Positions 24,240 through 35,836 of a DNA stretch of 36,375 bases are shown here, piece by piece. The stretch lies in IMG/VR virus record IMGVR_UViG_3300035145_002601, positions 1-36,375 of that record, one strand, 5' to 3'. The notes under the pieces were generated by a model. The model worked only from the letters and a program-made list of their open reading frames with translations. It was not told where the DNA came from and ran no database searches. Both the position numbers and the translations under genes were made by a program. The stretch comes from a virus. Every line of letters begins with the position of its first letter. The first letter of the stretch is position 1.

Positions 24240-24240
24240 T

Positions 24241-24345
24241 ACATTACATATAACAATATATACAATATAATATATAGAATAGAATACAACAAATTATAAT
24301 GAAATTAAACAAAATTTATCTAAATGAAATTGAATTGAAATTGGG
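24241..24345. repeat. AT-rich low-complexity segment
   Basis: Dense TATA, AATATA and AAATTGAA runs without a gene. It could be an easily melted replication or recombination site, or mutational drift; no iterons are evident. Confidence 0.4.
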
Positions 24346-24377
24346 CTTTTCCCTTTGTAAATGAGGGTTAAATCGGT

Positions 24378-24593
24378 ATGAGTGGGTTGAAGTGGGTGAA
24401 AATGGTTCTGAGTGGTGCGCGAGGCAAATATGGCGAAATAACTGAACGCAAATTTCATTTAAATTATTTTTTATTAAAAAAGAAAGAAGATTCAAGCGAA
24501 AATAAATCAAATCAAAATCAAACTAAATTAAATTTAAATACAAACAAAATTAAATACAATAAATTTGGTTTCCCCACATATAATAAAGATTAA
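24378..24593 (+). CDS. Hypothetical basic protein, low-complexity C-terminal half
   Basis: The 71-residue frame begins MSGLKWVKMVLSGARGKYGE; the second half is Asn/Lys-rich, following the AT-rich DNA. A GAGGG lies 13 nt before the ATG, farther than usual. No promoter is evident, so it is doubtful. Confidence 0.45.
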   Translation: MSGLKWVKMVLSGARGKYGEITERKFHLNYFLLKKKEDSSENKSNQNQTKLNLNTNKIKYNKFGFPTYNKD

Positions 24594-24623
24594 ATTGAAT
24601 TAAAATTAAATTGCGCCGAAATA

Positions 24624-24710
24624 ATTTTAACTAAATTTGAATGTATTTAACTTAAATAAAACTAATTTAACTAAATTTGAATTAATTTCGAGTGAAATAA
24701 ACTTAAATAA
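24624..24710. repeat. Two-copy AT-rich direct repeat, 40-bp period
   Basis: The 17-mer TTTAACTAAATTTGAAT occurs exactly at 24626 and 24666. AACTTAAATAA also occurs twice (24649 and 24700). The motif GAAATAA recurs here and at 24432, 24612, 24910, 24949 and 24982. Confidence 0.6.
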
Positions 24711-24711
24711 G

Positions 24712-24924
24712 ATGAACCAAAACCAATATGACGAGTATGTAGAGTATTGGATGGATAATGATGAGGGTTTTAGCAATCTATTGGACTCAGAAGAGTACAT
24801 GGTTGAAGATATAGAGATAATAGAGAATAATATTGCGCCCCGAACTGCGATCTTCATGCACCCAAATATGATATTGCTATTTCCACCATTTGATTTGCAA
24901 ATGAATTATAGCGAAATAACTTAA
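24712..24924 (+). CDS. Hypothetical acidic protein
   Basis: Seventy residues: MNQNQYDEYVEYWMDNDEGF, acidic middle, then IFMHPNMILLFPPFDLQM. It starts right after the direct repeat. A longer TTG-start reading runs through the repeat and is rejected. No family recognised. Confidence 0.6.
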   Translation: MNQNQYDEYVEYWMDNDEGFSNLLDSEEYMVEDIEIIENNIAPRTAIFMHPNMILLFPPFDLQMNYSEIT

Positions 24925-24972
24925 ATTAAATTTAAATGTAATTATTTTGAAATAAATTTATTGAAATTTTAT
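24925..24972. repeat. AT-rich box before a promoter
   Basis: Contains AATTAAATTTAAAT and AATTATTTTGAAATAAAT. Similar boxes precede the minus-strand promoters near 33356 and 35429, so it may be an UP-like element. Confidence 0.4.
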
Positions 24973-25000
24973 TTGACATTGGCGAAATAACACATATAGT
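24973..25000 (+). promoter_or_regulatory. Leaderless promoter
   Basis: TTGACA, 16 bp, TATAGT and 7 nt to the ATG at 25008. A GTG at 24999 in the same frame is part of the -10 box. Confidence 0.7.
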
Positions 25001-25007
25001 GATTGGT

Positions 25008-25325
25008 ATGAGTATTGCAAAAGACATAAATAGATTGTTGGACGATATTTTACATATACGTTCTGAAATAAAGAGAATGCGCGCCGATTTAAATGCAAAC
25101 GATTCTCTTGTAAATAAGAAAACAGGAGAGAAGATTAGTGCAAACAAGATCGAGGAACTCGCAAATAACGAAATAACTGCTATCAAGTCTGAGTTAAATA
25201 AGATTACCAACGAAGGTAAGCGCGCCACAGGCATATTCAACAACACATACTATGTTAATGATATGCTACAAGATAAGCTATTAGCTGAGGCAGGGCAAAC
25301 TACTGAAGATGTTGATAATCAATGA
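25008..25325 (+). CDS. Hypothetical helical protein
   Basis: A 105-residue, probably coiled-coil protein (INRLLDDILHIRSEIKRMRA, then KIEELANNEITAIKSELNKI). Start fixed by the leaderless promoter. AT-rich repeats flank it on both sides. No family recognised. Confidence 0.7.
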   Translation: MSIAKDINRLLDDILHIRSEIKRMRADLNANDSLVNKKTGEKISANKIEELANNEITAIKSELNKITNEGKRATGIFNNTYYVNDMLQDKLLAEAGQTTEDVDNQ

Positions 25326-25331
25326 TTTATG

Positions 25332-25381
25332 TTTTAATTCAAATTAAATTTGATTTAAATTAAAGAAATTCAAATTAATTG
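25332..25381. repeat. AT-rich repeat segment
   Basis: Repeated TTCAAATTAA and AAATTAAA units ahead of a promoter; same type as at 24925 and 26867. Confidence 0.4.
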
Positions 25382-25410
25382 TTGACTTTATTCTATTACC
25401 CCCTTATAGT
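25382..25410 (+). promoter_or_regulatory. Leadered promoter
   Basis: TTGACT, 17 bp, TATAGT. A leader of about 30 nt carries AAAGGAAAG before the ATG at 25447. Confidence 0.7.
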
Positions 25411-25446
25411 AGTTCTATATTATTAATCACCAACGAAAGGAAAGTT

Positions 25447-25644
25447 ATGAATCTCGCTAAATGTGCCCAAGCAACCTCTATTATGAACAATGTCAAGAAT
25501 GGTCACTACATTCGTGGCGCAAAGTTTGCCAACTTCGGCTCAGTAGTCGAAGATAGTATAATCGCACAACAAATGGAGGCAGATAAAAGACTTAAAGAAA
25601 TACAAGCACAAAGGGCATTGAGGTTAGCCAAAAAATGTGTATAA
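25447..25644 (+). CDS. Hypothetical basic protein
   Basis: Sixty-five residues (MNLAKCAQATSIMNNVKNGH onward), with a Lys/Arg/Gln-rich helix at the end. Leadered promoter. No family recognised. Confidence 0.7.
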   Translation: MNLAKCAQATSIMNNVKNGHYIRGAKFANFGSVVEDSIIAQQMEADKRLKEIQAQRALRLAKKCV

Positions 25645-25650
25645 ATATAC

Positions 25651-25956
25651 ATGAAAAAAGGTTATTATATATATTTTGATAAGAGTAAGGGAAAATGCCC
25701 CCCATGTGGTATTGTTGAACCCTATGTTGATCGTCTTATTAATGATGGATACGAAATAGAGAAGATTACTAGGGAAGAATATGCAGATAGATACAACACC
25801 AAAGCCCCAGTGACCCCAAGAATCAAGGTTGAAGGTGATGATGAGTTGTATCAAGTATATTTCAGAGAAGACAATGTAGATTATTATCACGAATTCAATG
25901 TAGAAGATATTTACGAAAGAATTAAAGTTTTACTTGACAATTCAGAAGATAAATAG
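25651..25956 (+). CDS. Thioredoxin/glutaredoxin-like protein
   Basis: The 101-residue protein has a redox motif KCPPCGIVEPYVDRL (CPPC at residues 16-19), a following helix and strand (GYEIEKI), then a likely cis-proline in APVTPRIKV (about 52-60). This is the thioredoxin fold order. The C-terminal part is acidic. It might serve ribonucleotide reductase or other dithiol steps, but no reductase gene is seen here. The -35 box of the structured RNA promoter lies in its last codons. Confidence 0.75.
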   Translation: MKKGYYIYFDKSKGKCPPCGIVEPYVDRLINDGYEIEKITREEYADRYNTKAPVTPRIKVEGDDELYQVYFREDNVDYYHEFNVEDIYERIKVLLDNSEDK

Positions 25957-25962
25957 TATAAT
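25934..25962 (+). promoter_or_regulatory. Perfect consensus promoter of a structured RNA
   Basis: TTGACA, exactly 17 bp, TATAAT. Predicted start near 25969. No coding sequence follows for more than 400 bp. Confidence 0.85.
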
Positions 25963-25968
25963 ATATAA

Positions 25969-26345
25969 ATAATCAAAATTGAGAACCAAACTCAATTAAA
26001 TAAAATAAAATTGATCTTTAACATTTTAATTTGGAGCAAATAAGTTGGCAACTGAGTATCGGGCGCCGACTTGCTCTATAAACTTTGGAAGGGCTTATAA
26101 TCCTTCCTGTGGGTGACCGAATACCCCTTCGTGTGCGGGGTAAGGTATATGCTTCTCTGTGGTGGAGTGCCGATGGACAAATGTCTGAGGTAGGATGACC
26201 CAATCCAAGTGTAGTTCGAGTAGGTTAACCAATGAACTGATGTTCACGCCGAAAGTTGAGGGTATTCAGTAGTCCCTCCCCACATCTATTTTCTCGCCAA
26301 TCGTTCAGCCCCGATCTAGTGCCTCTGCTAGGTCGGGGTTTTTTT
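25969..26345 (+). ncRNA. Probable structured non-coding RNA (about 375 nt), family not recognised
   Basis: The segment lies between a perfect consensus promoter and a strong terminator, is more GC-rich than its surroundings and holds no credible gene. Stems visible by eye: AATTGAG/CTCAATT (25977/25991); AAGTTGGC/GCCGACTT (26042/26065) extended by GAGC/GCTC; GGAAGG/CCTTCC (26087/26102); TACCCC/GGGGTA (26122/26137); GGAT/ATCC (26193/26203); GAAC/GTTC (26234/26242); GAGGG/CCCTC (26258/26274); then the terminator stem. I do not see the signatures of tmRNA, RNase P RNA, 6S RNA, tRNA or a group I intron. It may be a highly made phage RNA acting as decoy, regulator or scaffold; that is open. Confidence 0.75.
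26309..26345 (+). terminator. Intrinsic terminator of the structured RNA
   Basis: CCCCGATCTAG, an 8-nt loop and CTAGGTCGGGG form an 11-bp stem with one wobble pair, followed by seven T. Confidence 0.9.
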
Positions 26346-26347
26346 AT

Positions 26348-26376
26348 TTGACAAACCACGCATGATCCATTATTGT
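26348..26376 (+). promoter_or_regulatory. Leaderless promoter
   Basis: TTGACA, 17 bp, TATTGT and 6 nt to the ATG at 26383. It starts 2 nt after the terminator T-run. Confidence 0.7.
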
Positions 26377-26382
26377 ATTTTT

Positions 26383-26673
26383 ATGATTAACACATTATTA
26401 AAAGTTCTCTCCAAACAACAATTTGGTTTCGTTACAGCGCAAGATCTCGATTCATTAGAAGTTGAGATGCCCAACCTCCCCCTTCTTATTAGATGCGGGC
26501 GCGACAGATATATAGCTCAAGCCTGCGACACTAAAGCTAGAATGGAATATGTCGAGGAAACGGGCGACTATGTTCGTGATGTATCGATTCCAGCAAGAAC
26601 ATTAGATGGAATGGCAACTTCGCCTTTCGTTCCATTTGCTGTTAAGCAAGCAATTGAAGGCTTAAGAGCTTAA
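26383..26673 (+). CDS. Hypothetical protein
   Basis: Ninety-six residues (MINTLLKVLSKQQFGFVTAQ, then LPLLIRCGRDRYIAQACDTK and a helical end). Start fixed by the leaderless promoter; an upstream ATG at 26362 lies within the promoter spacer. After its stop GTGGGTCT and AGATCCCCAC can pair, without a T-run. No family recognised. Confidence 0.7.
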   Translation: MINTLLKVLSKQQFGFVTAQDLDSLEVEMPNLPLLIRCGRDRYIAQACDTKARMEYVEETGDYVRDVSIPARTLDGMATSPFVPFAVKQAIEGLRA

Positions 26674-26737
26674 CCGAAAACCCGGTGGGTCTACTTCTAG
26701 ATCCCCACATATACTATAATTACTATCATGAATATAC

Positions 26738-26815
26738 ATGGCAATAGAATCAATACTCATTCTAGGGACCTTATCCTTTTTTACTATATTAGCTAAAGAA
26801 TACCTTAAGGACTAG
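26738..26815 (+). CDS. Single-span membrane peptide (25 aa)
   Basis: MAIESILILGTLSFFTILAK plus EYLKD: one span and a charged tail. A TATAAT box at 26715-26720 lies 17 nt upstream, without a clear -35 box; a competing 22-codon frame starts at 26728. The match to the other tiny membrane peptides favours this frame. Confidence 0.45.
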   Translation: MAIESILILGTLSFFTILAKEYLKD

Positions 26816-26866
26816 ATATCAATTAAATAACAATCAAATACAATACAAATATGATACCTGACACTT

Positions 26867-26910
26867 AAATTAAATTAAATTAAAATTATTTCAAATTAAA
26901 TTGAAAAAAC
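26867..26910. repeat. AT-rich repeat segment before element 1
   Basis: Tandem AAATT units followed by ATTATTTCAAATTAAATTG. Adjoins the first 71-bp GC-cored element. Confidence 0.4.
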
Positions 26911-26913
26911 TTT

Positions 26914-26984
26914 CGTAAGTCGTTGACTACCAAGGGGTTAGGCGGCGCGCGCCGGCATAAATGCCTGACTATCAACAACTTATG
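26914..26984. repeat. 71-bp boundary element, copy 1
   Basis: Two 29-bp imperfect palindromes (26914-26942 and 26956-26984) flank the 13-bp GC core CGGCGCGCGCCGG. The left copy is one of the more diverged. It lies after a tiny membrane peptide gene and 28 bp before a TTGCGG promoter. Confidence 0.9.
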
Positions 26985-27041
26985 ACAACTTTCATTTTAA
27001 TTCACTTTTTTCTTGCGGTTTTTTAAAAACTAGCCTAGTAT
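26985..27041 (+). promoter_or_regulatory. Element-linked leaderless promoter 1
   Basis: A 28-bp T-rich box (ACAACTTTCATTTTAATTCA onward), TTGCGG (27013), 17 bp, TAGTAT and 6 nt to the ATG at 27048. The ATG is 64 bp from the element edge. Confidence 0.7.
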
Positions 27042-27047
27042 GTATAT

Positions 27048-27287
27048 ATGAAGTTAAACGAAGATTATGAAAACAAAGCTCCCAACTTTGACAATTTAGA
27101 TTCAATGGAGGGAGTTCAACTTGCAATGGATATGCTTGAGTGGAATGTCCTTAACAAATTAGACCTTGACACACGTGACTTAATTGGTTATAGTTTGATT
27201 CGCGCTTATATTGATGAGGTTGCAAAAAAAGCCTATGCCTTTGAGACTATGTTCGAAGGAAAAGAAAACAGAATTTATAAAAATTAA
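27048..27287 (+). CDS. Hypothetical helical protein
   Basis: Seventy-nine residues (NLDSMEGVQLAMDMLEWNVL, then RDLIGYSLIRAYIDEVAKKA). Leaderless start. No family recognised. Confidence 0.7.
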   Translation: MKLNEDYENKAPNFDNLDSMEGVQLAMDMLEWNVLNKLDLDTRDLIGYSLIRAYIDEVAKKAYAFETMFEGKENRIYKN

Positions 27288-27290
27288 CTA

Positions 27291-27319
27291 TTGACAACAA
27301 CAACAACTACTATATTATA
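27291..27319 (+). promoter_or_regulatory. Leaderless promoter
   Basis: TTGACA, 17 bp, ATTATA (or 16 bp and TATTAT), 6-7 nt to the ATG at 27326. Confidence 0.65.
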
Positions 27320-27325
27320 GATATT

Positions 27326-28195
27326 ATGAACATTGAAGAAAACACCAATACCGCTCCTCACAAATCTGTTAACTTGCACATTTGCGGAGGTAATCACAAA
27401 CTCTACGATATTGACGAGATTCGCGCTGTACCAACTCCACCTGTTGAGTTCCGCAAAAAAGAAAATGCCAATGGTGAGCGCACCATTTCTTATCAACCAA
27501 TCGCTCATGCTGAATTGATTGATCGCACTCGCAATGCCTTAACCTCTCAAGGTTTCCGCATTCAAGATGAGATTCACTCATTAGCTTCTCACGACAATCA
27601 TTACTTTGGTTTGTTTGCCATTGATCACGTCAATCGTGTTTCTACTGATCGTGGTTGTGTGGTTGGTATTCGTAACTCTCACGACAAAAAATTCCCTGCG
27701 GGATTGTGTGCAGGTGATGCACCTTTCGTCTGTGACAATCTTATCTTCACCAATACAATCAAACTTGCGCGTCGTCACACTCGCAACATTTTAGACGATC
27801 TCAACTTCACCATCAATCGTGCGCTTGGTAAGTTGTTTGGCTTTTGGAATGGTCAAGATGCTCGTATTGATGCATACAAAAATCGTTCTATTGGAAATGT
27901 CTATGCAAATGACTTAATTGTCAAAGCGGTTCAAATGGGTGCTTTGCCTAAAACCAAACTCCTTGATGTTGTGAATCAATGGGAATCATCCGATCACCCC
28001 GAATTTCACGACAGAAATGTCAACTCCCTTTATAATGCCTTTACAGAGGTATACAAAGGTAATCTTGTTCAACTCCCAAATCGCTCTGATGCGCTACACT
28101 CATTACTTGATGGGTACGTAGACTTCAATGTTCACAATCATGTCGAGAATGTTCTTGACATGGAAGTGGTAGAGAACGAATTGGTTGAGGTGTAA
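27326..28195 (+). CDS. DUF932-like protein
   Basis: The 289-residue protein resembles the DUF932 (phage/plasmid TIGR03299-like) family: YQPIAHAELIDRTRNAL near the N-terminus, then HYFGLFAIDHVN, CVVGIRNSHDKKFPAGLCAG, APFVCDNLIFTNTIKLARRH and a helical C-terminal half. Members occur on phages, plasmids and beside defence or mobile genes; their function is not established. It has higher GC than the left half of the window. It ends at a strong terminator and the second 71-bp element. Confidence 0.65.
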   Translation: MNIEENTNTAPHKSVNLHICGGNHKLYDIDEIRAVPTPPVEFRKKENANGERTISYQPIAHAELIDRTRNALTSQGFRIQDEIHSLASHDNHYFGLFAIDHVNRVSTDRGCVVGIRNSHDKKFPAGLCAGDAPFVCDNLIFTNTIKLARRHTRNILDDLNFTINRALGKLFGFWNGQDARIDAYKNRSIGNVYANDLIVKAVQMGALPKTKLLDVVNQWESSDHPEFHDRNVNSLYNAFTEVYKGNLVQLPNRSDALHSLLDGYVDFNVHNHVENVLDMEVVENELVEV

Positions 28196-28209
28196 GTAGT
28201 TGTGTCATA

Positions 28210-28239
28210 CCCCTCCCTTCGGGGAGGGGTTTTATTTTT
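28210..28239 (+). terminator. Intrinsic terminator with TTCG tetraloop
   Basis: CCCCTCCC-TTCG-GGGAGGGG followed by TTTTATTTTT. It closes the DUF932-like unit just upstream of element copy 2. Confidence 0.92.
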
Positions 28240-28252
28240 GCCCGAAACTTTC

Positions 28253-28323
28253 CGTAAGTTGTTGATATTCAACGACTTATGCCGGCGCGCGAGCCGTAAG
28301 TCATTGATATACAGACACTTACA
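28253..28323. repeat. 71-bp boundary element, copy 2
   Basis: Left palindrome 28253-28281 (half sites CGTAAGTTGTTGA and TCAACGACTTATG), core CCGGCGCGCGAGC, right palindrome 28295-28323. It lies between a terminator and the next promoter. Confidence 0.9.
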
Positions 28324-28380
28324 ACAAAATGCATTTAATTGCATTTTGTTCTTGCGGTAATTAAGAAACTACCTTATTGT
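28324..28380 (+). promoter_or_regulatory. Element-linked leaderless promoter 2
   Basis: A 28-bp box, here a palindrome around AATGCATTTAATTGCATT, then TTGCGG (28352), 17 bp, TATTGT and 6 nt to the ATG at 28387, 64 bp from the element edge. Confidence 0.7.
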
Positions 28381-28386
28381 AGTTAT

Positions 28387-28788
28387 ATGATTAAGAGAAA
28401 CCAACACGACCCACGATACATCATCAAGAAGAATCGTCCTGTATATGTTTACAAGAATCTACACAAGGATTGTTGGAGCATCAAGCAACATGGTTTAGTT
28501 AAGGCTCACATCCCACAAGGCGATAGTATCGGACTTTGGGATTGCTATTTTCATGTTGACATCAAGGGCAGAGAAAAGGTTCTTCGTGAGAAGCGCAAGA
28601 ATGTTCATGCTTTTGTGAAGGGCTATCTTCAAGATGCCGAGAATGTAAACACAGACAGACCCGCAACTGAGGTAACATATAATCCATACAAGTATGAGAC
28701 TTTTGTTGACAAGGATACCGAGAAGTTTGTATACTATGCAGATGAAGTTTTATTATCACACAACCAAGTAACCGCCTACATACCATGA
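28387..28788 (+). CDS. Conserved phage protein (KNLHKDCWSI type)
   Basis: The 133-residue protein shows PVYVYKNLHKDCWSIKQHGL, VKAHIPQGDSIGLWDCYFHV, KGREKVLREKRKNVHAFVKG and YNPYKYETFVDKD. This order occurs in a widespread family of small phage and bacterial proteins without known function. The ATG at 28387 is set by the promoter; an upstream ATG at 28339 lies before the promoter and cannot be on this transcript. ATGA overlap with the next gene. Confidence 0.8.
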   Translation: MIKRNQHDPRYIIKKNRPVYVYKNLHKDCWSIKQHGLVKAHIPQGDSIGLWDCYFHVDIKGREKVLREKRKNVHAFVKGYLQDAENVNTDRPATEVTYNPYKYETFVDKDTEKFVYYADEVLLSHNQVTAYIP

Positions 28789-28979
28789 ACAACCTATCAC
28801 AAACAACAATTAAGTATGCAAAAGATTGGTTTACGGAAAACCAATACTCAGTCACAACTGACAATAATCAATTCACATTACATATCAACGGCAACATATT
28901 TATTCTCGATCCAACCGAGCTTAAGTATAGAGCAGAACTACAATTAGACTCATTATTAGAGGAGGTAAAGACAGATTAA
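28785..28979 (+). CDS. Hypothetical protein
   Basis: Sixty-four residues with a beta-rich centre (QFTLHINGNIFILDPTELKY). Coupled to the upstream gene (ATGA); the next ATG follows its stop directly. Confidence 0.7.
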   Translation: MNNLSQTTIKYAKDWFTENQYSVTTDNNQFTLHINGNIFILDPTELKYRAELQLDSLLEEVKTD

Positions 28980-29183
28980 ATGAAAGAAGAATTAAAAGCA
29001 ATTAAATTCGCCATTGACGGACTCAGTGATGAGATGCTAGAACACCGTAGACATGCAAACATGGAGGATCTCGTCAAGGTCATGAAAAACATTAACGACA
29101 ACCTTGTTTCTATTAGCTTTGACCTAAAAGATTTAGTCGAAGCAAAAAAGTTTCAAAATGAGTTGACAACAGCCCTAAGGTAA
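28980..29183 (+). CDS. Hypothetical helical protein
   Basis: Sixty-seven residues, coiled-coil-like (MEDLVKVMKNINDNLVSISF). Its last codons contain the -35 box of the next promoter. Confidence 0.7.
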   Translation: MKEELKAIKFAIDGLSDEMLEHRRHANMEDLVKVMKNINDNLVSISFDLKDLVEAKKFQNELTTALR

Positions 29184-29191
29184 GCTATATT
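29163..29191 (+). promoter_or_regulatory. Leaderless promoter
   Basis: TTGACA, 17 bp, TATATT and 6 nt to the ATG at 29198; embedded in the previous gene's end. Confidence 0.7.
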
Positions 29192-29197
29192 GTTTAT

Positions 29198-29425
29198 ATG
29201 ATGACACAAGAAAAGATAATACAAACCATTCGCCAACTTTGCGAAGGCAACATGAGGTATGCCGATGCAATGGATAGAATCAATGTCGAGCGCGGCAAAG
29301 AACTTGGCGTAGATGGATTCACAGTTCAATCAGCAGAGGAAGCATTAAGTGACCTCATACTTGACCTACAATCACTAGAACACGAACTATGCCTTAACGG
29401 CTCAATGGAGGGAGCATCACTATGA
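29198..29425 (+). CDS. Hypothetical acidic helical protein
   Basis: Seventy-five residues (EKIIQTIRQLCEGNMRYADA onward). Leaderless start; ATGA overlap with the next gene. No family recognised. Confidence 0.7.
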   Translation: MMTQEKIIQTIRQLCEGNMRYADAMDRINVERGKELGVDGFTVQSAEEALSDLILDLQSLEHELCLNGSMEGASL

Positions 29426-29616
29426 TATTAGACACACCCAAACAAATCGAATCATTCCGTCAACGTACTTTGCTTAAAGGATTGCAAGGAGAAATCATGG
29501 GTCTTAGGCTTACTAGGGGCAGAAGTTGCTACTCTATTATTAAGGAGGAGTTTGGACTCAAGGGCAGTAAACAAAAAGTTTACGATCAATTCAAAAAGTT
29601 ACTACAAGGAGAATAA
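29422..29616 (+). CDS. Hypothetical basic protein
   Basis: Sixty-four residues (RTLLKGLQGEIMGLRLTRGR, SIIKEEFGLKGSKQKVYDQF). Similar small basic proteins are common in phages; no name is supported. Confidence 0.65.
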   Translation: MILDTPKQIESFRQRTLLKGLQGEIMGLRLTRGRSCYSIIKEEFGLKGSKQKVYDQFKKLLQGE

Positions 29617-29618
29617 TT

Positions 29619-29840
29619 ATGACAAAACAAGAAATGGAAGATATGGTAGAGAGTTGGAATTGGAATTGCACAATCTTCGACATATACGAAGAGATTAAAC
29701 ATATGAGAGAAAGCGAGCGCGAAAAGTTGGTAAACTTTGCTTTCAACTTCTTCTCAGACAAAGGCTCTAAAGATAGCTTGTCTGAGCTAGCACACCACTT
29801 TGGCATTCACATCGAACAAGAGGAAGAAGTTAATGCATAA
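29619..29840 (+). CDS. Hypothetical acidic helical protein
   Basis: Seventy-three residues with a GSKDSLSELAHHFGIHIEQE end. CAAGGAGAA upstream is a good ribosome binding site. Overlaps the next gene by 8 nt. Confidence 0.7.
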   Translation: MTKQEMEDMVESWNWNCTIFDIYEEIKHMRESEREKLVNFAFNFFSDKGSKDSLSELAHHFGIHIEQEEEVNA

Positions 29841-30078
29841 GTACATAGAAGCTGTTTGTGTTGGTAAGCCATTAGGTTTACCCGAATGGGATGAAGCGAG
29901 TGAGCTTTGGGAATTGTTCTTTGAGGAGTCGGAGACTCCTTACCACCCATATGATGAACGAGACATTATTTCTGTAAGTTTCGAATCAGCACAAGAAGTG
30001 ACTGATGCTTACAATCACTATAACTTAAACCCTGTAGGAGGATCCAACAATGAAGAACTTATTGAAGTCAATTCTTAA
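29833..30078 (+). CDS. Hypothetical acidic protein
   Basis: Eighty-one residues (MHKYIEAVCVGKPLGLPEWD onward). The start follows AGAGGAAG at good spacing. Overlaps the next gene by 29 nt. No family recognised. Confidence 0.65.
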   Translation: MHKYIEAVCVGKPLGLPEWDEASELWELFFEESETPYHPYDERDIISVSFESAQEVTDAYNHYNLNPVGGSNNEELIEVNS

Positions 30079-30283
30079 TCTTTTTATTTCCCGCTATCAA
30101 GTTGTGTACACAGCTGCAGACGGGAACACTGAAATGTACACCATATCAAAACCCAGTCACCGTAATGAATTCGGCAACAAGCAAGAAGGTAAAGCTGTGG
30201 TGGGCTTTAAGTCTTGGTGTTACAACAAAGAAGGAGTTCGTTCCTTTCGTTACGACAGAATCGTATCCTTAAACAAAGCTTAA
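30050..30283 (+). CDS. Small protein with WYL-like beta segment
   Basis: The 77-residue protein has VVYTAADGNTEMYTI and ends with VVGFKSWCYNKEGVRSFRYD plus RIVSL, similar to the C-terminal part of a WYL domain (G.R.FR.DRI..L). WYL domains sense ligands or nucleic acids in phage and defence regulators. Here only the short beta module is present. TAGGAGGA before the ATG is a strong ribosome binding site. Confidence 0.65.
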   Translation: MKNLLKSILNLFISRYQVVYTAADGNTEMYTISKPSHRNEFGNKQEGKAVVGFKSWCYNKEGVRSFRYDRIVSLNKA

Positions 30284-30285
30284 TT

Positions 30286-30441
30286 ATGATAGAGTCACTA
30301 AAAATGGAGCTCAGAGAGCTTGGCCACAAGCTAGCTGTTCGTGAAATGTACGGGGATAATACTCCTAAGTATCATGATGAACGTCGTCGTCATTATAAAC
30401 TACTACTAAAGTTGTATGAATTAGAAAAGCGTAGCTTGTAA
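30286..30441 (+). CDS. Hypothetical basic helical protein (51 aa)
   Basis: MIESLKMELRELGHKLAVRE begins a charged helical protein ending KLLLKLYELEKRSL. The ATG lies 2 nt after the upstream stop. Last gene of its unit. Confidence 0.65.
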   Translation: MIESLKMELRELGHKLAVREMYGDNTPKYHDERRRHYKLLLKLYELEKRSL

Positions 30442-30492
30442 ATACGGGCCGCGTAAATATATAGCTTGCAAATATATATCCCCTAAATATAA

Positions 30493-30528
30493 CCCTCGTC
30501 GGCACCGCCGGCGGGGGTTTGCTTTTAC
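30493..30528 (+). terminator. Intrinsic terminator
   Basis: CCCTCGTCGGC-ACC-GCCGGCGGGGG, an 11-bp stem with wobble pairs, then TTTGCTTTT. Confidence 0.85.
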
Positions 30529-30540
30529 CCTCAGTTTTTT

Positions 30541-30611
30541 CGTAAGTCCTTGATAATCAACAACTTATGAAAATCGCGCCGGCGGAAGTCGTTGATATTC
30601 AACGAGTTACA
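30541..30611. repeat. 71-bp boundary element, copy 3
   Basis: Palindromes at 30541-30569 and 30583-30611 with core AAAATCGCGCCGG, the most diverged core. It follows a terminator and precedes a leaderless promoter by 28 bp. Confidence 0.88.
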
Positions 30612-30668
30612 ACAACTTTCGATTTAATTCACTTTTTTCTTGTGTTCGGTTAGGTTTGGTGGTACTGT
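30612..30668 (+). promoter_or_regulatory. Element-linked leaderless promoter 3
   Basis: The 28-bp box ACAACTTTCGATTTAATTCA onward is nearly the same as in promoter 1. TTGTGT (30640), 17 bp, TACTGT and 6 nt to the ATG at 30675, 64 bp from the element edge. Confidence 0.65.
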
Positions 30669-30674
30669 ATACTT

Positions 30675-30875
30675 ATGCAAAGAATAGTAAAAATCCTAAT
30701 GGCGCGTGACGGCTTAAGCCTTGAAGACGCGGAATTGCAAGTGAGCGCTTTTTTCTCTGAAATGGCTCTTGATTTGAATCAAGGCGGTGACCCATTTGAA
30801 TGGGAAACTTTATTTGTCGACGAGTTCGGGTTAGAGCCTGATTTTTTTGAGGATTTAGTGTTTGCCTTAGTTTAA
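30675..30875 (+). CDS. Hypothetical acidic protein
   Basis: Sixty-six residues (MARDGLSLEDAELQVSAFFS onward), with an acidic aromatic end. Leaderless start. The next promoter begins in its last codons. Confidence 0.7.
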   Translation: MQRIVKILMARDGLSLEDAELQVSAFFSEMALDLNQGGDPFEWETLFVDEFGLEPDFFEDLVFALV

Positions 30876-30890
30876 AAATTAGTTTACTTT
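30862..30890 (+). promoter_or_regulatory. Leaderless promoter of the GP88-like gene
   Basis: TTGCCT, 17 bp, TACTTT and 6 nt to the ATG at 30897. Confidence 0.6.
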
Positions 30891-30896
30891 AGTATT

Positions 30897-31625
30897 ATGA
30901 TTAACTTACTATCCAACCCAAGCAAGATGCCTTGCTATTCATTCAACATTCCCGCTTTCAAGTATTGCCCAGCCGCGCAGCTATTAGCAAAGATTAAAGA
31001 AGCGGGCAAAAAGTTTATTTGTGATTCTTGCTACGCTTGCAAGGGTTTCTATATGTTTGCTAACGTCAAGGCAAGTTTACAAGGCAAGGCGGATCTTATC
31101 ACAAAGTCTTTGCACCAAGACAACGGGCAAACTTTTATTGATGAGATGTGCAAGCAAATTCGCGCAAAGTATTTTGACAAGCACGGAAACAAAAAGCAAC
31201 TCAAAAAGACAAACACAGATTTGTTTCGCGTTCATGATTCGGGCGATTTGTTTTCCCCCAAGTATATTGCCGCGTGGATTAAGATTTGTGAGCAATTCCC
31301 AACAATTCGCTTTTGGTTTCCAACTAGGGAATGGAAGCGCGACTCGCAACTTCCACACTTGCAAAAGTTAGCTAGCCTTAAAAACGTTTGCATTAAGCCA
31401 AGCGCAATTTATGTAGATGAGCCAGCCCCTCAAGTAGACGGACTCGACGCGGGCACTTCGGTTTATACTAGCAAGGCAAAAGCCGAGCAAGACGGGCATT
31501 TTGTTTGCCCCGCAACTTACGTTAAAGGCGAGGACGGCAAAATTCTTGCGACTTGTCAAGCCCATAATTGCAACCTCTGCTTTATTAAGGGTTGCAAAAA
31601 GGGTATAGCGTACTTAGCCCACTAA
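30897..31625 (+). CDS. GP88-like phage protein
   Basis: The 242-residue protein matches the pattern of the mycobacteriophage gene-product-88 family: MPCYSFNIPAFKYCPAAQLL, then CDSCYACKGFYMFANV, a helical region, FRVHDSGDLFSPKYIAAW and FPTIRFWFPTREWKRD. The Cys-rich N-terminus and a second cluster near the C-terminus (CQAHNCNLCFIKGC) suggest a bound metal or cluster. The function of the family is not established. Its GC content is above that of the plus-strand array, which hints at separate origin. Confidence 0.75.
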   Translation: MINLLSNPSKMPCYSFNIPAFKYCPAAQLLAKIKEAGKKFICDSCYACKGFYMFANVKASLQGKADLITKSLHQDNGQTFIDEMCKQIRAKYFDKHGNKKQLKKTNTDLFRVHDSGDLFSPKYIAAWIKICEQFPTIRFWFPTREWKRDSQLPHLQKLASLKNVCIKPSAIYVDEPAPQVDGLDAGTSVYTSKAKAEQDGHFVCPATYVKGEDGKILATCQAHNCNLCFIKGCKKGIAYLAH

Positions 31626-31644
31626 GTCAACCCCAAAAAAGTCT

Positions 31645-31715
31645 CCTAAGTTGTTGATATTCAACGACTTAGGCGGCGCGCGCCGGCGTAAGTGCCTGAT
31701 ATTCAACGACTTACG
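31645..31715. repeat. 71-bp boundary element, copy 4
   Basis: Palindromes 31645-31673 (outer pairs CC/GG) and 31687-31715 (outer pairs CG/CG), core CGGCGCGCGCCGG identical to copy 1. It starts 19 nt after the GP88-like stop, with no separate terminator. Confidence 0.92.
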
Positions 31716-31771
31716 AAAACTTTCACTTAATTGCTTTTTTTCTTGCTATCAGTTGCCGGCTCGCTTATTGT
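31716..31771 (+). promoter_or_regulatory. Element-linked leaderless promoter 4
   Basis: A 27-bp box (AAAACTTTCACTTAATTGCT onward), TTGCTA (31743), 17 bp, TATTGT and 6 nt to the ATG at 31778, 63 bp from the element edge. Confidence 0.65.
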
Positions 31772-31777
31772 ATATAT

Positions 31778-31960
31778 ATGACGACAAGAGAACTTATTGA
31801 ACTTATCAATTCAACCCAAGACGGAGAGATTTGGCTCTATGATAGCAAACTCAAAGACCACCTTGCTGTGGTCGAGGAAGCATTAGAAAAAGATTTGATC
31901 CACTTCATCCGCGCCGATGTTGGCAACATTACCACAGAATTTATTCGTGTTTCTATTTGA
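31778..31960 (+). CDS. Hypothetical acidic protein
   Basis: Sixty residues (MTTRELIELINSTQDGEIWL onward). Leaderless start; the next promoter overlaps its stop. Confidence 0.65.
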   Translation: MTTRELIELINSTQDGEIWLYDSKLKDHLAVVEEALEKDLIHFIRADVGNITTEFIRVSI

Positions 31961-31985
31961 CACAGAGCAAAAACTAAACTACTTT
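31957..31985 (+). promoter_or_regulatory. Leaderless promoter
   Basis: TTGACA, 17 bp, TACTTT and 6 nt to the ATG at 31992. Confidence 0.7.
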
Positions 31986-31991
31986 ATACTT

Positions 31992-32231
31992 ATGACAATT
32001 AAAGACAACGGAAAAGAATTCTACTTTGAGCGCTTACCTAATGGCTTACTTAGAACATATGACTACAAGAGCGCTTGGGATGTAACATTTCAACGAGTTG
32101 ACGGAGTATGGAAAGGTCACTTTCGTGGTGACTATATCGGCTACAAAGGTTTACTCAACAAACTCAACTTATTACAACAACAAGTAGATGCAGAAAGAGC
32201 ATTGGCAAAAGATTTAGCTGAAGTAGCTTGA
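31992..32231 (+). CDS. Hypothetical protein
   Basis: Seventy-nine residues, beta-rich N-terminal half (FYFERLPNGLLRTYDYKSAW), helical end. Start fixed by the leaderless promoter. The next promoter overlaps its stop. Confidence 0.7.
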   Translation: MTIKDNGKEFYFERLPNGLLRTYDYKSAWDVTFQRVDGVWKGHFRGDYIGYKGLLNKLNLLQQQVDAERALAKDLAEVA

Positions 32232-32256
32232 CAAACAAAACAAACTAATTTAGTTT
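32228..32256 (+). promoter_or_regulatory. Leaderless or near-leaderless promoter
   Basis: TTGACA, 17 bp, TAGTTT and 8 nt to the ATG at 32265. Confidence 0.6.
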
Positions 32257-32264
32257 ATTATTAT

Positions 32265-32609
32265 ATGAAAAACTTCGATGATTTAAAATTCACTTACGAT
32301 GACTCTATCAGAAGATGGAGTGCATCGCTCACACTTGACAATGGATATTTATTCTCGGTTATTGCGGGCAACGATGATGGAGCATTTCAACCATTTTATG
32401 GTCGTTATCCCGATACTTTTGAAGTTGCAGTATTTAATGAAGATAAAAACTTCGTTCCATTATCTGTTTCTGATGATGTGCTAGGTTGGCAAGAGCCACA
32501 CAGAGTGACATCACTTATGCATCAATTTGAGATGGATGGGAAAGCTCACGAAGATTTGCTTGTAGCAATGCGAGCAGATTTTAACAAAAAACTTGTTGAC
32601 TCTCACTAA
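32265..32609 (+). CDS. Hypothetical protein
   Basis: A 114-residue protein with a beta-rich first half (WSASLTLDNGYLFSVIAGND) and a helical second half. The next promoter overlaps its 3' end. No family recognised. Confidence 0.7.
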   Translation: MKNFDDLKFTYDDSIRRWSASLTLDNGYLFSVIAGNDDGAFQPFYGRYPDTFEVAVFNEDKNFVPLSVSDDVLGWQEPHRVTSLMHQFEMDGKAHEDLLVAMRADFNKKLVDSH

Positions 32610-32624
32610 AAACTAGATTACCTT
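32596..32624 (+). promoter_or_regulatory. Leaderless promoter
   Basis: TTGACT, 17 bp, TACCTT and 6 nt to the ATG at 32631; overlaps the end of the previous gene. Confidence 0.65.
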
Positions 32625-32630
32625 ATTATT

Positions 32631-32897
32631 ATGACATTAACAGAAGAACAACGAATCGCAGTTATTAAACACGCGGCAGAAAGCTCACAAAAGGTTTCAG
32701 CCACCAAGTCAGTTGCTGACTTCATCGAGGAAATTAAGTCCGAAGAAGTTTTGGGCGAGCATGGCTTATTAGATGCTCAAGAGTGCGACATCGAAGACGA
32801 AGTTTCTCTAATTGATTACAAGCCAACCGCTGAATCTATTGATGAAGAGGATTTAGATTTTGGCATTAGCGATGAAATGAAAGGGCTTTACTCATGA
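32631..32897 (+). CDS. Hypothetical acidic protein
   Basis: Eighty-eight residues, strongly acidic C-terminal half (DAQECDIEDEVSLIDYKPTA onward). ATGA overlap with a membrane peptide gene. Confidence 0.7.
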   Translation: MTLTEEQRIAVIKHAAESSQKVSATKSVADFIEEIKSEEVLGEHGLLDAQECDIEDEVSLIDYKPTAESIDEEDLDFGISDEMKGLYS

Positions 32898-33007
32898 TTA
32901 TTTTAGAAGTATTAGTTGCAATTTTTTTCTTGACAACTCCCGCAATGGTTGCGTACATGGCTTATCAAGACATGGTAGACTACGACAACGAAGAGAAATT
33001 TTGGTAA
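32894..33007 (+). CDS. Single-span membrane peptide (37 aa)
   Basis: MIILEVLVAIFFLTTPAMVA is the membrane part, followed by an acidic tail (MVDYDNEEKFW). It overlaps the upstream stop (ATGA). Last plus-strand gene; element copy 5 starts 7 nt later. Confidence 0.65.
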   Translation: MIILEVLVAIFFLTTPAMVAYMAYQDMVDYDNEEKFW

Positions 33008-33014
33008 AAGTTGT

Positions 33015-33085
33015 CGTAAGTTGTTGATATTCAACGACTTACGGCGGCGCGCGGCACCTAAGTGCCTGACTACCAACGACTTATG
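33015..33085. repeat. 71-bp boundary element, copy 5, between convergent genes
   Basis: Palindromes 33015-33043 (near-perfect CGTAAGTTGTTGA and TCAACGACTTACG) and 33057-33085, core GCGGCGCGCGGCA. It fills nearly all of the gap between a plus gene ending at 33007 and a minus gene ending at 33086, the position of a bidirectional terminator. Confidence 0.92.
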
Positions 33086-33319
33086 CTAAAAGTCGTATTG
33101 GTCATGGTAGCCGTAGTCGAAGTCTTCGTAGGCATCGTGCCAACGCTCTTCGTGGTTGCGGTGAACCTCTTGCATTAGAGCTTGCTCCTCAAGGTAGCGC
33201 TCTTCTGCGAGGGCTTGATTCGTGCGGGCGATCTCCCTGTTGATTTCTGCCATTTGGCGAGCTTGCTCATTTGCAAGGGCGTTATCGTTGCGGTCGAAGT
33301 GTGAGTACTTACTAATCAT
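33086..33319 (-). CDS. Hypothetical charged helical protein
   Basis: Seventy-seven residues, a long charged helix (NEQARQMAEINREIARTNQA and ALAEERYLEEQALMQEVHRN) and an aromatic tail rich in Asp/Tyr. The start is the ATG just after the promoter; an upstream TTG is rejected. First gene of the minus-strand block. Confidence 0.7.
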   Translation of the reverse strand: MISKYSHFDRNDNALANEQARQMAEINREIARTNQALAEERYLEEQALMQEVHRNHEERWHDAYEDFDYGYHDQYDF

Positions 33320-33327
33320 ATACAAAC

Positions 33328-33356
33328 AACATAGCCCATCTGGCAGGGTATAGCAA
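33328..33356 (-). promoter_or_regulatory. Near-leaderless minus-strand promoter
   Basis: TTGCTA, 17 bp, TATGTT and 8 nt to the ATG at 33319. An AT-rich box (AATAATTCAAAATAAATGCG) lies between it and element copy 6. Confidence 0.6.
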
Positions 33357-33391
33357 GCATATTCGCATTTATTTTGAATTATTTTTTATTT

Positions 33392-33462
33392 CATAAATCG
33401 TTTATATTCAACGACTTACAGCCGGCGCGCCGGCCTAAGTCCCTGATTACCAAGGACTTAGG
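33392..33462. repeat. 71-bp boundary element, copy 6
   Basis: Palindromes 33392-33420 and 33434-33462 (outer pairs CC/GG), core GCCGGCGCGCCGG. The core and its flanks are the same as in copy 7. It lies between two minus-strand units. Confidence 0.9.
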
Positions 33463-33475
33463 TAAACTTTGGCGG

Positions 33476-33658
33476 TTATACTAAGCAAGCATTAATGCCC
33501 ATTTGATCAATGGCATCAGAAATTTCCATTTTCATTTCTTCGCAAGTGATAATTGTTTGTCGTGCTGAGATGCTACCCGCTTCAGCGGCTTCAATGTTAG
33601 CTTCAATTCTGTCTTGAAGGGCGTTGATTCTTTCGGTGAGTTCTTGTAATGTTGTCAT
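33476..33658 (-). CDS. Hypothetical helical protein
   Basis: Sixty residues (MTTLQELTERINALQDRIEA onward), predicted coiled coil. Own leaderless promoter; ends 14 nt before element copy 6. Confidence 0.7.
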   Translation of the reverse strand: MTTLQELTERINALQDRIEANIEAAEAGSISARQTIITCEEMKMEISDAIDQMGINACLV

Positions 33659-33664
33659 ATTATT

Positions 33665-33693
33665 AAAGTAAGCTAATTGGTTGAGGAAGTCAA
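33665..33693 (-). promoter_or_regulatory. Leaderless minus-strand promoter
   Basis: TTGACT, 17 bp, TACTTT and 6 nt to the ATG at 33658. Confidence 0.7.
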
Positions 33694-33694
33694 G

Positions 33695-34012
33695 TCATTT
33701 ATCACATTTTTTTCTTCCGTATCTGTCTTCGTTTTGTGGTGGAATAATTCGCATCATATTGCCACGCACGCCTGACTCAGCTAAAGTTGTTTCTCTATTG
33801 ATTACAAACCTTCTCCTGTTTACCTTTTCAAGCTCAACCTTGAGATCGTGCCTTGGGAAACTTTCATCAATTCTCTTTTTAACTCCTTTTACATATTTTC
33901 TAACATCAGACATGGTGTCAAATTCACGTACGCCAATGCGAAACTTATCTTTACCATAAGAGAAAGAAGAAAAGAAAAGAAGAAGAGAGAGTGAGATTGT
34001 AATTTTTTTCAT
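33695..34012 (-). CDS. Secreted or periplasmic hypothetical protein
   Basis: The 105-residue protein has a clear signal peptide (MKKITISLSLLLFFSSFSYG, cleavage likely near residue 20) and a basic mature part (VRKYVKGVKKRIDESFPRHD). A phage protein in the envelope could affect superinfection, but no family is recognised. It lies 4 nt after a small gene in the same unit. Confidence 0.72.
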   Translation of the reverse strand: MKKITISLSLLLFFSSFSYGKDKFRIGVREFDTMSDVRKYVKGVKKRIDESFPRHDLKVELEKVNRRRFVINRETTLAESGVRGNMMRIIPPQNEDRYGRKKCDK

Positions 34013-34016
34013 ATTT

Positions 34017-34226
34017 TTAGAATGTTAAGTTTTTAAGAGAAGTAAAGGTTTTGCACCAACGGCGTAAAGGGTGGTAACAATTTGATCCTTGGTGAATCAA
34101 GTGTTGCTCGCCACATTTGGCTTGTATCATGTAACCTTTTTTAGTTTGCTGAATAGAGGTAATGTCGGGGCACTTTTTAAGTTGCTTCATTACCTTGACC
34201 ATGTTATTAGTATTGTGCTTACTCAT
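34017..34226 (-). CDS. Small HicA-like or RNA-binding-like protein
   Basis: The 69-residue protein (MVKVMKQLKKCPDITSIQQT, then KKGYMIQAKCGEQHLIHQGS and a basic end, PLRRWCKTFTSLKN) recalls the short beta-beta-helix fold of HicA-type dsRNA-binding proteins. The catalytic H of HicA toxins would be the H in LIHQG, but the match is weak. AAAGGAT lies upstream and its ATG overlaps the stop of the upstream peptide gene (ATGA). Confidence 0.55.
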   Translation of the reverse strand: MSKHNTNNMVKVMKQLKKCPDITSIQQTKKGYMIQAKCGEQHLIHQGSNCYHPLRRWCKTFTSLKNLTF

Positions 34227-34345
34227 GCATATATCCTTTGTTTGTGTTTTGCCTTGCGAGGCAGAACCTTGTTTTTTAGCTTATGAGGACGGGCTTTAGT
34301 AAAGACCATTGGAATCCTCACTTTTATTTTAGCTTTGTTTTTCAT
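34223..34345 (-). CDS. Highly basic 40-aa protein
   Basis: MKNKAKIKVRIPMVFTKARP continues with alternating Lys/Arg (KLKNKVLPRKAKHKQ), 16 Lys/Arg in 40 residues. It could bind nucleic acid or ribosomes. ATGA overlap with the next gene, own promoter upstream. Confidence 0.65.
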   Translation of the reverse strand: MKNKAKIKVRIPMVFTKARPHKLKNKVLPRKAKHKQRIYA

Positions 34346-34353
34346 ATACTAAC

Positions 34354-34382
34354 AACCTAATGGATAAGGGGGTTGACGTCAA
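34354..34382 (-). promoter_or_regulatory. Near-leaderless minus-strand promoter
   Basis: TTGACG, 17 bp, TAGGTT and 8 nt to the ATG at 34345. It lies 27 bp from element copy 7, as on the plus strand. Confidence 0.65.
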
Positions 34383-34409
34383 GCATATTGGCAATTATTT
34401 TTATTTTGT

Positions 34410-34480
34410 CGTAAGTTGTTGTTATACAACGACTTACAGCCGGCGCGCCGGCCTAAGTTGTTGATATTCAAGGACTTACG
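34410..34480. repeat. 71-bp boundary element, copy 7
   Basis: Palindromes 34410-34438 and 34452-34480, core GCCGGCGCGCCGG. It lies between the terminator at 34497 and the promoter at 34382, both serving the minus strand. Confidence 0.92.
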
Positions 34481-34496
34481 GAACTTTTAGTAGTAC

Positions 34497-34518
34497 AAAA
34501 AACCCCCCTTTCGGGGGG
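34497..34518 (-). terminator. Intrinsic terminator of the four-gene minus-strand operon
   Basis: CCCCCC-GAAA-GGGGGG followed by TTTTTT on the minus strand. Confidence 0.92.
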
Positions 34519-34523
34519 ATAGT

Positions 34524-34589
34524 TCAATGTGGCTTCCTTGTGAGTACATAGGCGGAGCAACATATTCCGCTCACAATTAAGAAGATCAT
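34524..34589 (-). CDS. Single-span membrane peptide (21 aa)
   Basis: MIFLIVSGICCSAYVL plus a basic tail (TRKPH). The ATG overlaps the upstream stop (ATGA) and the terminator begins 6 nt after its stop, so it fits exactly as the last gene of the operon. Confidence 0.6.
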   Translation of the reverse strand: MIFLIVSGICCSAYVLTRKPH

Positions 34590-34750
34590 TGCTCTATGAG
34601 TTTAATGGTAGCCTTGGGGTACTCTTTACGACGTATACGTCTAGCCATGTGCATGGCGCGTTGTTCGTTACTGAATTGGTCTACTAGTTGACCAAAGACC
34701 CTAAGGTCGAACCAATTCGAGAAGTTTTTATTCTTTGCAATCGTTATCAT
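34586..34750 (-). CDS. Hypothetical basic protein (54 aa)
   Basis: MITIAKNKNFSNWFDLRVFG continues to a basic helix (RAMHMARRIRRKEYPKATIK). Joined to both neighbours by ATGA overlaps. Confidence 0.65.
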   Translation of the reverse strand: MITIAKNKNFSNWFDLRVFGQLVDQFSNEQRAMHMARRIRRKEYPKATIKLIEQ

Positions 34751-34971
34751 ACATTTACATTAGTGGATTCTCTGAGTAAAGTCAAGACTTTTTCGTATTC
34801 TTTTTGCGCTTCTACTAGTGCAGAATGTGCATCTTGTACAGCTTGCGCTTTGGTGTGCGTTTCGCACCATCCTTCTTTTATTACATTAACAAGAAAGTTA
34901 AGATTGCCACGCGCCTTACTCATAGCAAGGGCGCAGTCTAGTTCGGGGTATGGTACTCTTTCAGCGCTCAT
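34747..34971 (-). CDS. Hypothetical helical protein
   Basis: Seventy-four residues, helical (QAVQDAHSALVEAQKEYEKV). Joined to both neighbours by ATGA overlaps. No family recognised. Confidence 0.7.
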   Translation of the reverse strand: MSAERVPYPELDCALAMSKARGNLNFLVNVIKEGWCETHTKAQAVQDAHSALVEAQKEYEKVLTLLRESTNVNV

Positions 34972-35120
34972 TGGTTATTAAATTCGTTGATGATTTGGTC
35001 AAGTGTCCATACGTTACCGCCTACGTCCTCAAAGAGGTCAAGCCCGTCAAGTGGGTCTGTGCCCAAGCGGTCGATGATACCGAGTTCTTCTGTCATGAAT
35101 GTTTCTAATTGTTCTGTCAT
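34968..35120 (-). CDS. Hypothetical acidic protein (50 aa)
   Basis: MTEQLETFMTEELGIIDRLG begins an acidic protein ending NEFNNQ. First gene of a four-gene operon; leaderless start. ATGA overlap with the next gene. Confidence 0.68.
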   Translation of the reverse strand: MTEQLETFMTEELGIIDRLGTDPLDGLDLFEDVGGNVWTLDQIINEFNNQ

Positions 35121-35126
35121 ATTACT

Positions 35127-35155
35127 ACTATCGTCTATTTAATGATTAAAGTCAA
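35127..35155 (-). promoter_or_regulatory. Leaderless minus-strand promoter
   Basis: TTGACT, 17 bp, GATAGT and 6 nt to the ATG at 35120. Confidence 0.7.
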
Positions 35156-35171
35156 ATTAAATCGCGCTTAT

Positions 35172-35363
35172 TTAGCACTTTTTAGTTTCAGCAAAGAAGG
35201 GATGTCTTGTAACATCCGCAAAGCGGATACCCACTTCTCTGTCTGTGCGGTAGATCCGCACCTTCGCAATGATACCGAGATCGGGGTGATTAACTTGCCC
35301 CTTGTACTCAAGGATTTTGTTGTCGCGTGAGATGAGAATGTCGCCTTTGTCGTATGTGTTCAT
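35172..35363 (-). CDS. Small beta-rich hypothetical protein
   Basis: The 63-residue protein (YDKGDILISRDNKILEYKGQ, then IIAKVRIYRTDREVGIRFAD) looks like an SH3-like barrel. It has a leader of about 31 nt with AAAGGAAAA, so it is probably well expressed. Confidence 0.7.
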   Translation of the reverse strand: MNTYDKGDILISRDNKILEYKGQVNHPDLGIIAKVRIYRTDREVGIRFADVTRHPFFAETKKC

Positions 35364-35400
35364 TTTAATTTTCCTTTGTTTAATTATTAACTATAAAAAC

Positions 35401-35429
35401 AATATAAACAGAAAAACAGCTCACGTCAA
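35401..35429 (-). promoter_or_regulatory. Leadered minus-strand promoter
   Basis: TTGACG, 17 bp, TATATT. The leader to 35363 contains AAAGGAAAA. Upstream lies the AT-rich box AATAATTCCGAAATAAATGC. Confidence 0.7.
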
Positions 35430-35529
35430 ACTTATTTGCATTTATTTCGGAATTATTTTATTGCACAATCCTACTGCCGGAGCCGGCGCTATATGTGCCC
35501 GCATTGGCGCGGATCTTGTACAGATGTTT

Positions 35530-35600
35530 CGTAAGTGCTTGATTATCAAGTACTTAGGCCGGCGCGCGCCGCCTAAGTCGTTGACTGTAAGCGACTTATG
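35530..35600. repeat. 71-bp boundary element, copy 8
   Basis: Palindromes 35530-35558 (GCTTGA paired with TCAAGT) and 35572-35600, core CCGGCGCGCGCCG. It lies 5 nt after a minus-strand gene. Between it and the next promoter is GCCGGAGCCGGC (35476), a further GC palindrome. Confidence 0.9.
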
Positions 35601-35605: not shown

Positions 35606-35836
35606 TTAGAACTCGTCCATTAGCCACTCGTCAAGAGCGTAAGTGTCAAGGTCAGGGTCTGTATAGCTTGCCCCATCAGGGGTAACAGGCACGCCGTAAT
35701 CCACTAGCTCTTGGGCTAAATCTTTATAGTTGACAAACCTGCGAGCCATCTTGTAAAGACTCTCGTCGTTGCCTAGCCATAGCGCTACGTTCCAAGTTGC
35801 CCAGTTCTTCCATCCGTTGTATCTTGTGTCTGTCAT
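35606..35836 (-). CDS. Conserved small phage protein (NGWKNWATWNVALWL type)
   Basis: The 76-residue protein begins MTDTRYNGWKNWATWNVALW and ends acidic (DLDTYALDEWLMDEF). The Trp-rich motif marks a phage family of unknown function (DUF7249-like, as I recall). The ATG at 35836 overlaps the upstream stop (TAATG) and has AGAGGAT upstream. Confidence 0.75.
   Translation of the reverse strand: MTDTRYNGWKNWATWNVALWLGNDESLYKMARRFVNYKDLAQELVDYGVPVTPDGASYTDPDLDTYALDEWLMDEF

Follow-up and report, generated by a model that had tools for sequence, protein, structure and literature searches.

What function is served by a DNA element that recurs in one fixed format between the genes of a virus? The question is raised by the window (the whole stretch of DNA that was analysed, a 36,375-bp virus fragment of 34% GC), in which eight copies of a 71-bp element all lie between genes (8/8). 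Each copy consists of a 29-bp palindrome, a 13-bp GC core and a second 29-bp palindrome (29-13-29), with zero length variation in the window and a palindrome centre-to-centre distance of 42 bp. A preliminary description had reported the starts of the eight copies, their exact layout, their intergenic location in AT-rich DNA and the 42-bp distance, all of which are verified by measurement. A loose-palindrome pattern (both strands, ≤2 mismatches) has 31 matches in the window vs. 0.07 expected from dinucleotide shuffles, and 0 of 100 shuffles reach 31. The elements and the adjoining intrinsic terminators are as follows:

26914..26984, no strand assigned: element copy 1, palindromes 26914-26942 and 26956-26984, GC core 26943-26955
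28253..28323, no strand assigned: element copy 2, palindromes 28253-28281 and 28295-28323, core 28282-28294
30541..30611, no strand assigned: element copy 3, palindromes 30541-30569 and 30583-30611, core 30570-30582
31645..31715, no strand assigned: element copy 4, palindromes 31645-31673 and 31687-31715, core 31674-31686
33015..33085, no strand assigned: element copy 5, palindromes 33015-33043 and 33057-33085, core 33044-33056
33392..33462, no strand assigned: element copy 6, palindromes 33392-33420 and 33434-33462, core 33421-33433
34410..34480, no strand assigned: element copy 7, palindromes 34410-34438 and 34452-34480, core 34439-34451
35530..35600, no strand assigned: element copy 8, palindromes 35530-35558 and 35572-35600, core 35559-35571
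28209..28230, plus strand: intrinsic terminator just upstream of copy 2
30491..30519, plus strand: intrinsic terminator just upstream of copy 3
34503..34518, minus strand: intrinsic terminator just upstream, in the sense of transcription, of copy 7

The window elements reside directly past a gene end or an intrinsic terminator, and the tandem copies also precede the start of the next unit. Copy 1 is followed by an AT-rich promoter-like stretch and a gene starting at 27048. An intrinsic terminator is located within the 57 bp that separate copy 2 from the stop at 28195, copy 3 directly follows an intrinsic terminator, and copy 4 is 19 bp past a GP88-family gene with no terminator in between. Copy 5 occupies the gap of a convergent gene pair (7 bp and 0 bp to the respective stops), copy 6 is flanked by two minus-strand genes, with 13 bp separating it from the preceding stop and 72 bp from the next start, copy 7 is downstream on the minus strand of the terminator at 34518-34503, and copy 8 is 5 bp past the stop of the minus-strand gene 35606-35836. 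GP88-family and L5 gp82-family genes sit between the window elements, and the window genes include RIIA and RIIB homologs; a RIIA homolog of another contig (G023:8248-9951, the contig of L082) matches over several frames with many stops, the frames of its relatives being intact. Other content of the window includes a manA RNA (RF01745, 71 bits) at 26087-26288 on the plus strand, ~600 bp before the first element, and plus-strand genes for an arginyl-tRNA-protein transferase-like protein (543-1337), a sulfotransferase (1338-1931) and a UV-endonuclease UvdE (2805-3812), in a phage.

Elements of this kind are widespread: at least 128 viral loci with two or more palindrome pairs are recovered by scans of viral contigs after rescoring, the total being about 130, of which 128 entered the context analysis. 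A single large-terminase clade is common to 36 of the 40 contigs tested (36-100% identity), while the closest isolate terminases reach only about 22-29% identity. The collection holds at least 590 terminase relatives, and the element-bearing contigs, having been picked for carrying the motif, give no measure of frequency in the clade. The element is not universal in the clade, as two contigs (G041 and G042) have the terminase and long flanks with the element absent, and a de novo palindrome search of terminase (TerL) contigs lacking elements finds none of the element kind. In 7 of 8 contigs of 112-206 kb, the elements are confined to one segment of about 5-13 kb; the sole case of two separate segments among the mapped contigs is G005 (24063-26964 and 140299-142891).

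Among cultured phages, no convincing element match is found in INPHARED with one window copy as the query, and a match in a Cronobacter phage is, on inspection, a lone site after the capsid gene. Single palindromes of bacterial genomes are mostly lone hairpins, some beside tRNA genes, and may be chance finds among terminators. The sole bacterial-genome case with spaced, GC-cored copies like those of the window is L151, a 5.7-kb contig of a Rhodobacteraceae MAG that is perhaps phage. One bacterial MAG (Microscillaceae Prado074, contigs JALONJ01, L127-L240) has many lone TAAGTNNTTGANNNTCAANNACTTA palindromes ~1 kb apart, from which the paired GC-core layout is mostly absent.

The spacing of the two palindromes is fixed within a phage and differs between lineages. 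The modal spacing of the contig is matched exactly by 438 of 471 elements, whereas between contigs the spacing spans about 40 to 61 bp (40-42, 45-53, 57-58 and 60-61 bp in relatives), with 50 bp the commonest. The preliminary description had equated 42 bp with four helical turns and the binding of two proteins on one face of the DNA. This helical-phase argument is ruled out by the variation between lineages, which includes half-turn values (47 and 58 bp). The spacing type tracks the TerL tree (15 changes vs. 20.7 when shuffled, with 0 of 200 shuffles as low) and acts as a phage-level trait, altered in step across all sites of a genome. Either homogenisation of the copies or a constraint common to all sites, set by a single trans-acting complex, could explain such in-step change. 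Constraint is argued for by the cores, which differ in sequence by 26% on average and still keep their length. The cores are GC-rich (median 88%, against a mean of 41% for the contigs) and weakly palindromic (0.51 vs. 0.36 shuffled). In two lineages (L115 and L098), the core centre occurs in both orientations (GGCGGGGG or CCCCGCCCC; loops TTC/GAA and GTA/TAC) with the orientation of the edges constant, and an extra repeated motif (CTGTTAGA...TGTTAG...TGTCAAG) is present between the element and the promoter.

Placement relative to genes was analysed in the sample of 128 loci, with gene, terminator and element calls by purpose-written scripts that include a simple gene finder. An element is present in 36 of 57 convergent vs. 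8 of 54 divergent junctions (Fisher P = 2e-7; as for the other statistics, over related and fragmentary contigs that are not independent samples) and in 222 of 851 tandem junctions. Of the tandem elements located ≤25 bp from the stop, 10 of 82 (12%) have an intrinsic terminator, compared to 61 of 106 (58%) of those >60 bp from the stop (P = 7e-11). The element therefore either follows a terminator or replaces it. It is tentatively read, at a little under an even chance, as a protein-bound and direction-independent transcription boundary that acts as a roadblock or an insulator. Of the functions listed in the preliminary description (terminator, insulator, recombination site or replication site), the insulator or boundary is the best supported, given the location at 3' ends and convergent junctions and the rarity at divergent ones; an RNA-hairpin terminator is disfavoured, recombination is weak at best, and replication draws positive support from the one-segment clustering and nothing further.

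The main rival is an operator or upstream activating site: a protein bound there would repress or activate early genes through the promoter immediately downstream, and the elements would be at 3' ends because promoters are located there. Promoter-like sequence does follow many tandem copies, the gap between a tandem element and the next start is nearly always long enough to hold a promoter (10th percentile 49 bp), the ATG is 62-63 bp from the element in window copies 1, 2 and 4, and dimeric palindromic sites are typical of regulators. The operator is nevertheless unlikely, as elements are enriched at convergent junctions, where no promoter-like sequence follows, and depleted at divergent junctions, which hold two promoters; in addition, strong promoter-like sites inside cassettes (e.g., at 27291 and 29163) have no element, and the distance from element to start differs widely among phages.

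The positions of the elements are conserved. Among 265 orthologous junctions of <95% protein identity, the element is in both members of 101, in neither of 161 and discordant in 3; across different spacing types, the counts are 38, 67 and 1. In one discordant junction, a degenerate pair is found on alignment in the contig scored as lacking the element. The fixed presence at these junctions bears on another proposal, modelled on that made for PeSLs: the element would be a recombination joint or mobile regulatory cassette, and its repetition would allow phages to exchange gene cassettes. Genes of 94-100% protein identity do flank elements of different core length in different phages, and alignment breaks are more frequent in elements (2.77 per kb) than in other intergenic DNA (1.93) or genes (0.89). 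The excess is, however, gone at ≥90% identity (0.68 vs. 0.98 in other intergenic DNA). One well-resolved exchange involves a shared gene and terminator, next to an element that is still of the phage's own type. A site for a tyrosine or serine recombinase is rejected, as these enzymes (PF00589 and PF00239) are absent from 14 element-bearing phage contigs in searches with positive controls; a Y1 transposase (PF01797) is likewise not found in the 14 contigs, which may be incomplete, and a host could supply such an enzyme. Homologous recombination, moreover, does not need a conserved half-site, and a recombination joint is considered improbable.

A third proposal, that transcript hairpins terminate, process or protect the mRNA 3' end, agrees with placement at 3' ends and can be examined in the palindromes themselves. 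The preliminary description held that outer pairs and one inner pair change together, a claim that does not withstand shuffling: for the 16 window palindromes, the covariation score is 0.118, against 0.091 for shuffled sets, of which 48 of 500 score as high, and the share of paired cells is 82.2%, against 80.1% (55 of 500 as high). When the partners of 722 palindromes are shuffled within their own contig, excess pairing is detected at 0 of 13 positions and a deficit at two (z -3.5 and -3.7). In transcription-oriented tandem copies, stem mismatches include 537 G.T vs. 496 A.C (P = 0.21); this test of G.U pairing is weaker if both strands are transcribed and is, therefore, judged jointly with the covariation test. 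An RNA hairpin or cruciform is disfavoured because there is neither half-to-half covariation nor a preference for G.U over A.C. Outward T-tracts are also weak, separate intrinsic terminators often precede the element, and the elements have no match in Rfam. An exception is the lineage with a 29-bp core, where every core that has a terminator-like hairpin together with a T-tract (9 of 9) is oriented with transcription. An RNA element is, overall, highly unlikely.

With no RNA-pairing preference and no excess pairing, the palindromes are best read as inverted half-sites: the symmetry appears, from the sequences, to be that of two inverted copies of one half-site (consensus C-G-T-A-A-G/C-T-C-G-T-T-G-A) instead of one kept by compensating changes. 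The pattern, with four half-sites per element, looks like that expected for a dimeric DNA-binding protein, and the anti-correlation at the two deficit positions would fit selection on total dimer binding.

A role in replication or genome organisation (as an origin or a segregation, gyrase or packaging site) would suit the clustered, symmetric and GC-cored elements, which reside in one segment in most large contigs, but is just as improbable as an RNA element, since GC-skew extremes are away from the cluster in most contigs, the strict link to gene ends and the fixed junctions better suit transcription, and an unsystematic search finds no partition gene.

From the architecture, placement, half-site character, fixed spacing and conserved positions, which are established by computation, we infer protein binding, bridging and a roadblock or insulation step. 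In the proposed boundary mechanism, the four 13-bp half-sites of an element form two inverted pairs, with the GC-rich core setting a lineage-specific distance. A putative protein encoded by the phage or host would bind each palindrome as a dimer, and the two dimers would probably join into one complex. This complex, at the 3' ends of early units, may form a boundary in either direction, blocking polymerase that leaves the upstream gene or two convergent genes, or reinforcing its stop, and may shield the promoter that opens the next transcription unit. A 349-aa protein is the best conserved neighbour (36/36 contigs tested) but is rejected as the binder, as it also occurs in contigs with no detected elements and its AlphaFold model (pLDDT 81) has no significant match in the PDB. 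This clade-wide protein, with two predicted three-helix units, adjoins a sigma factor-like 243-aa protein (L356:747-2524, minus strand), and the gene pair is located between the terminase and the element segment.

Several known systems share features with the element. The L5 stoperators are dispersed intergenic protein sites that are thought to stop elongating polymerase and are short, asymmetric and oriented with transcription; the elements are similarly dispersed, putative protein sites, and differ in being symmetric doubles. The REP/BIME/REPIN sequences of enterobacteria and pseudomonads are palindromes that occur in pairs in intergenic DNA, at tandem and convergent junctions but not at divergent ones; of these, REPs form hairpins and are spread by a Y1 transposase. 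The elements share the paired intergenic palindromes and the junction bias; by contrast, they have no covariation and no Y1 transposase in the 14 contigs and are conserved in position, and a REP/REPIN reading is rejected, given this absence of PF01797 and the 3 discordant junctions in 265 in place of mobility.

The promoter-early stem-loop (PeSL), a term associated with Arbiol et al. 2010 and Comeau et al. 2014, is reportedly one stem-loop terminator plus a promoter and is credited with mediating recombination. PeSLs of the T4-type phages RB49 and phi1 are cited in PMC4503421 and resemble the elements in being repeated intergenic units between early transcription units of a variable region, with gene exchange nearby; a PeSL has a terminator before and a promoter after it, and many tandem elements are likewise followed by promoter-like sequence and often preceded by a terminator, whereas convergent copies have no such promoter. 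In place of a single stem-loop, the elements have two palindromes without a base-pairing signature, at lineage-fixed spacing and conserved positions. A stem-loop that serves as intrinsic terminator is rejected outside the 29-bp-core lineage, as there is no RNA pairing signature and separate terminators precede the elements; PeSL-type recombination is considered improbable, the breakpoint excess being small.

The extended start-associated sequences (ESAS) of cluster K mycobacteriophages each consist of a single pair of 17-bp inverted repeats, the spacer of which varies (4-13 bp in most), and are tied to translation starts (PMC3203893). Like ESAS, the elements are dispersed paired inverted repeats by a subset of phage genes and are conserved with these genes; unlike ESAS, they have two palindromes at fixed spacing and are linked to gene ends. 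The elements are not assigned to ESAS, as many abut stop codons, and no ESAS-type linked 13-bp repeat is seen in an unsystematic look at element flanks.

The elements represent a widespread class of phage DNA element of unusually strict geometry, with no convincing match among the isolate records searched. With one spacing per genome, conserved positions and lineages that differ, they offer a testable case of coordinated change. It is possible, though on balance doubtful, that in this clade of large phages a dedicated tetravalent DNA-binding complex sets direction-independent boundaries where early units end and that its geometry, read from the palindrome spacing, has shifted in step at all sites, several times, to give each lineage its own format. 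If the boundary role is true, large phages would insulate many small early units without sole reliance on RNA terminators, and the elements would be a source of a compact two-way insulator.
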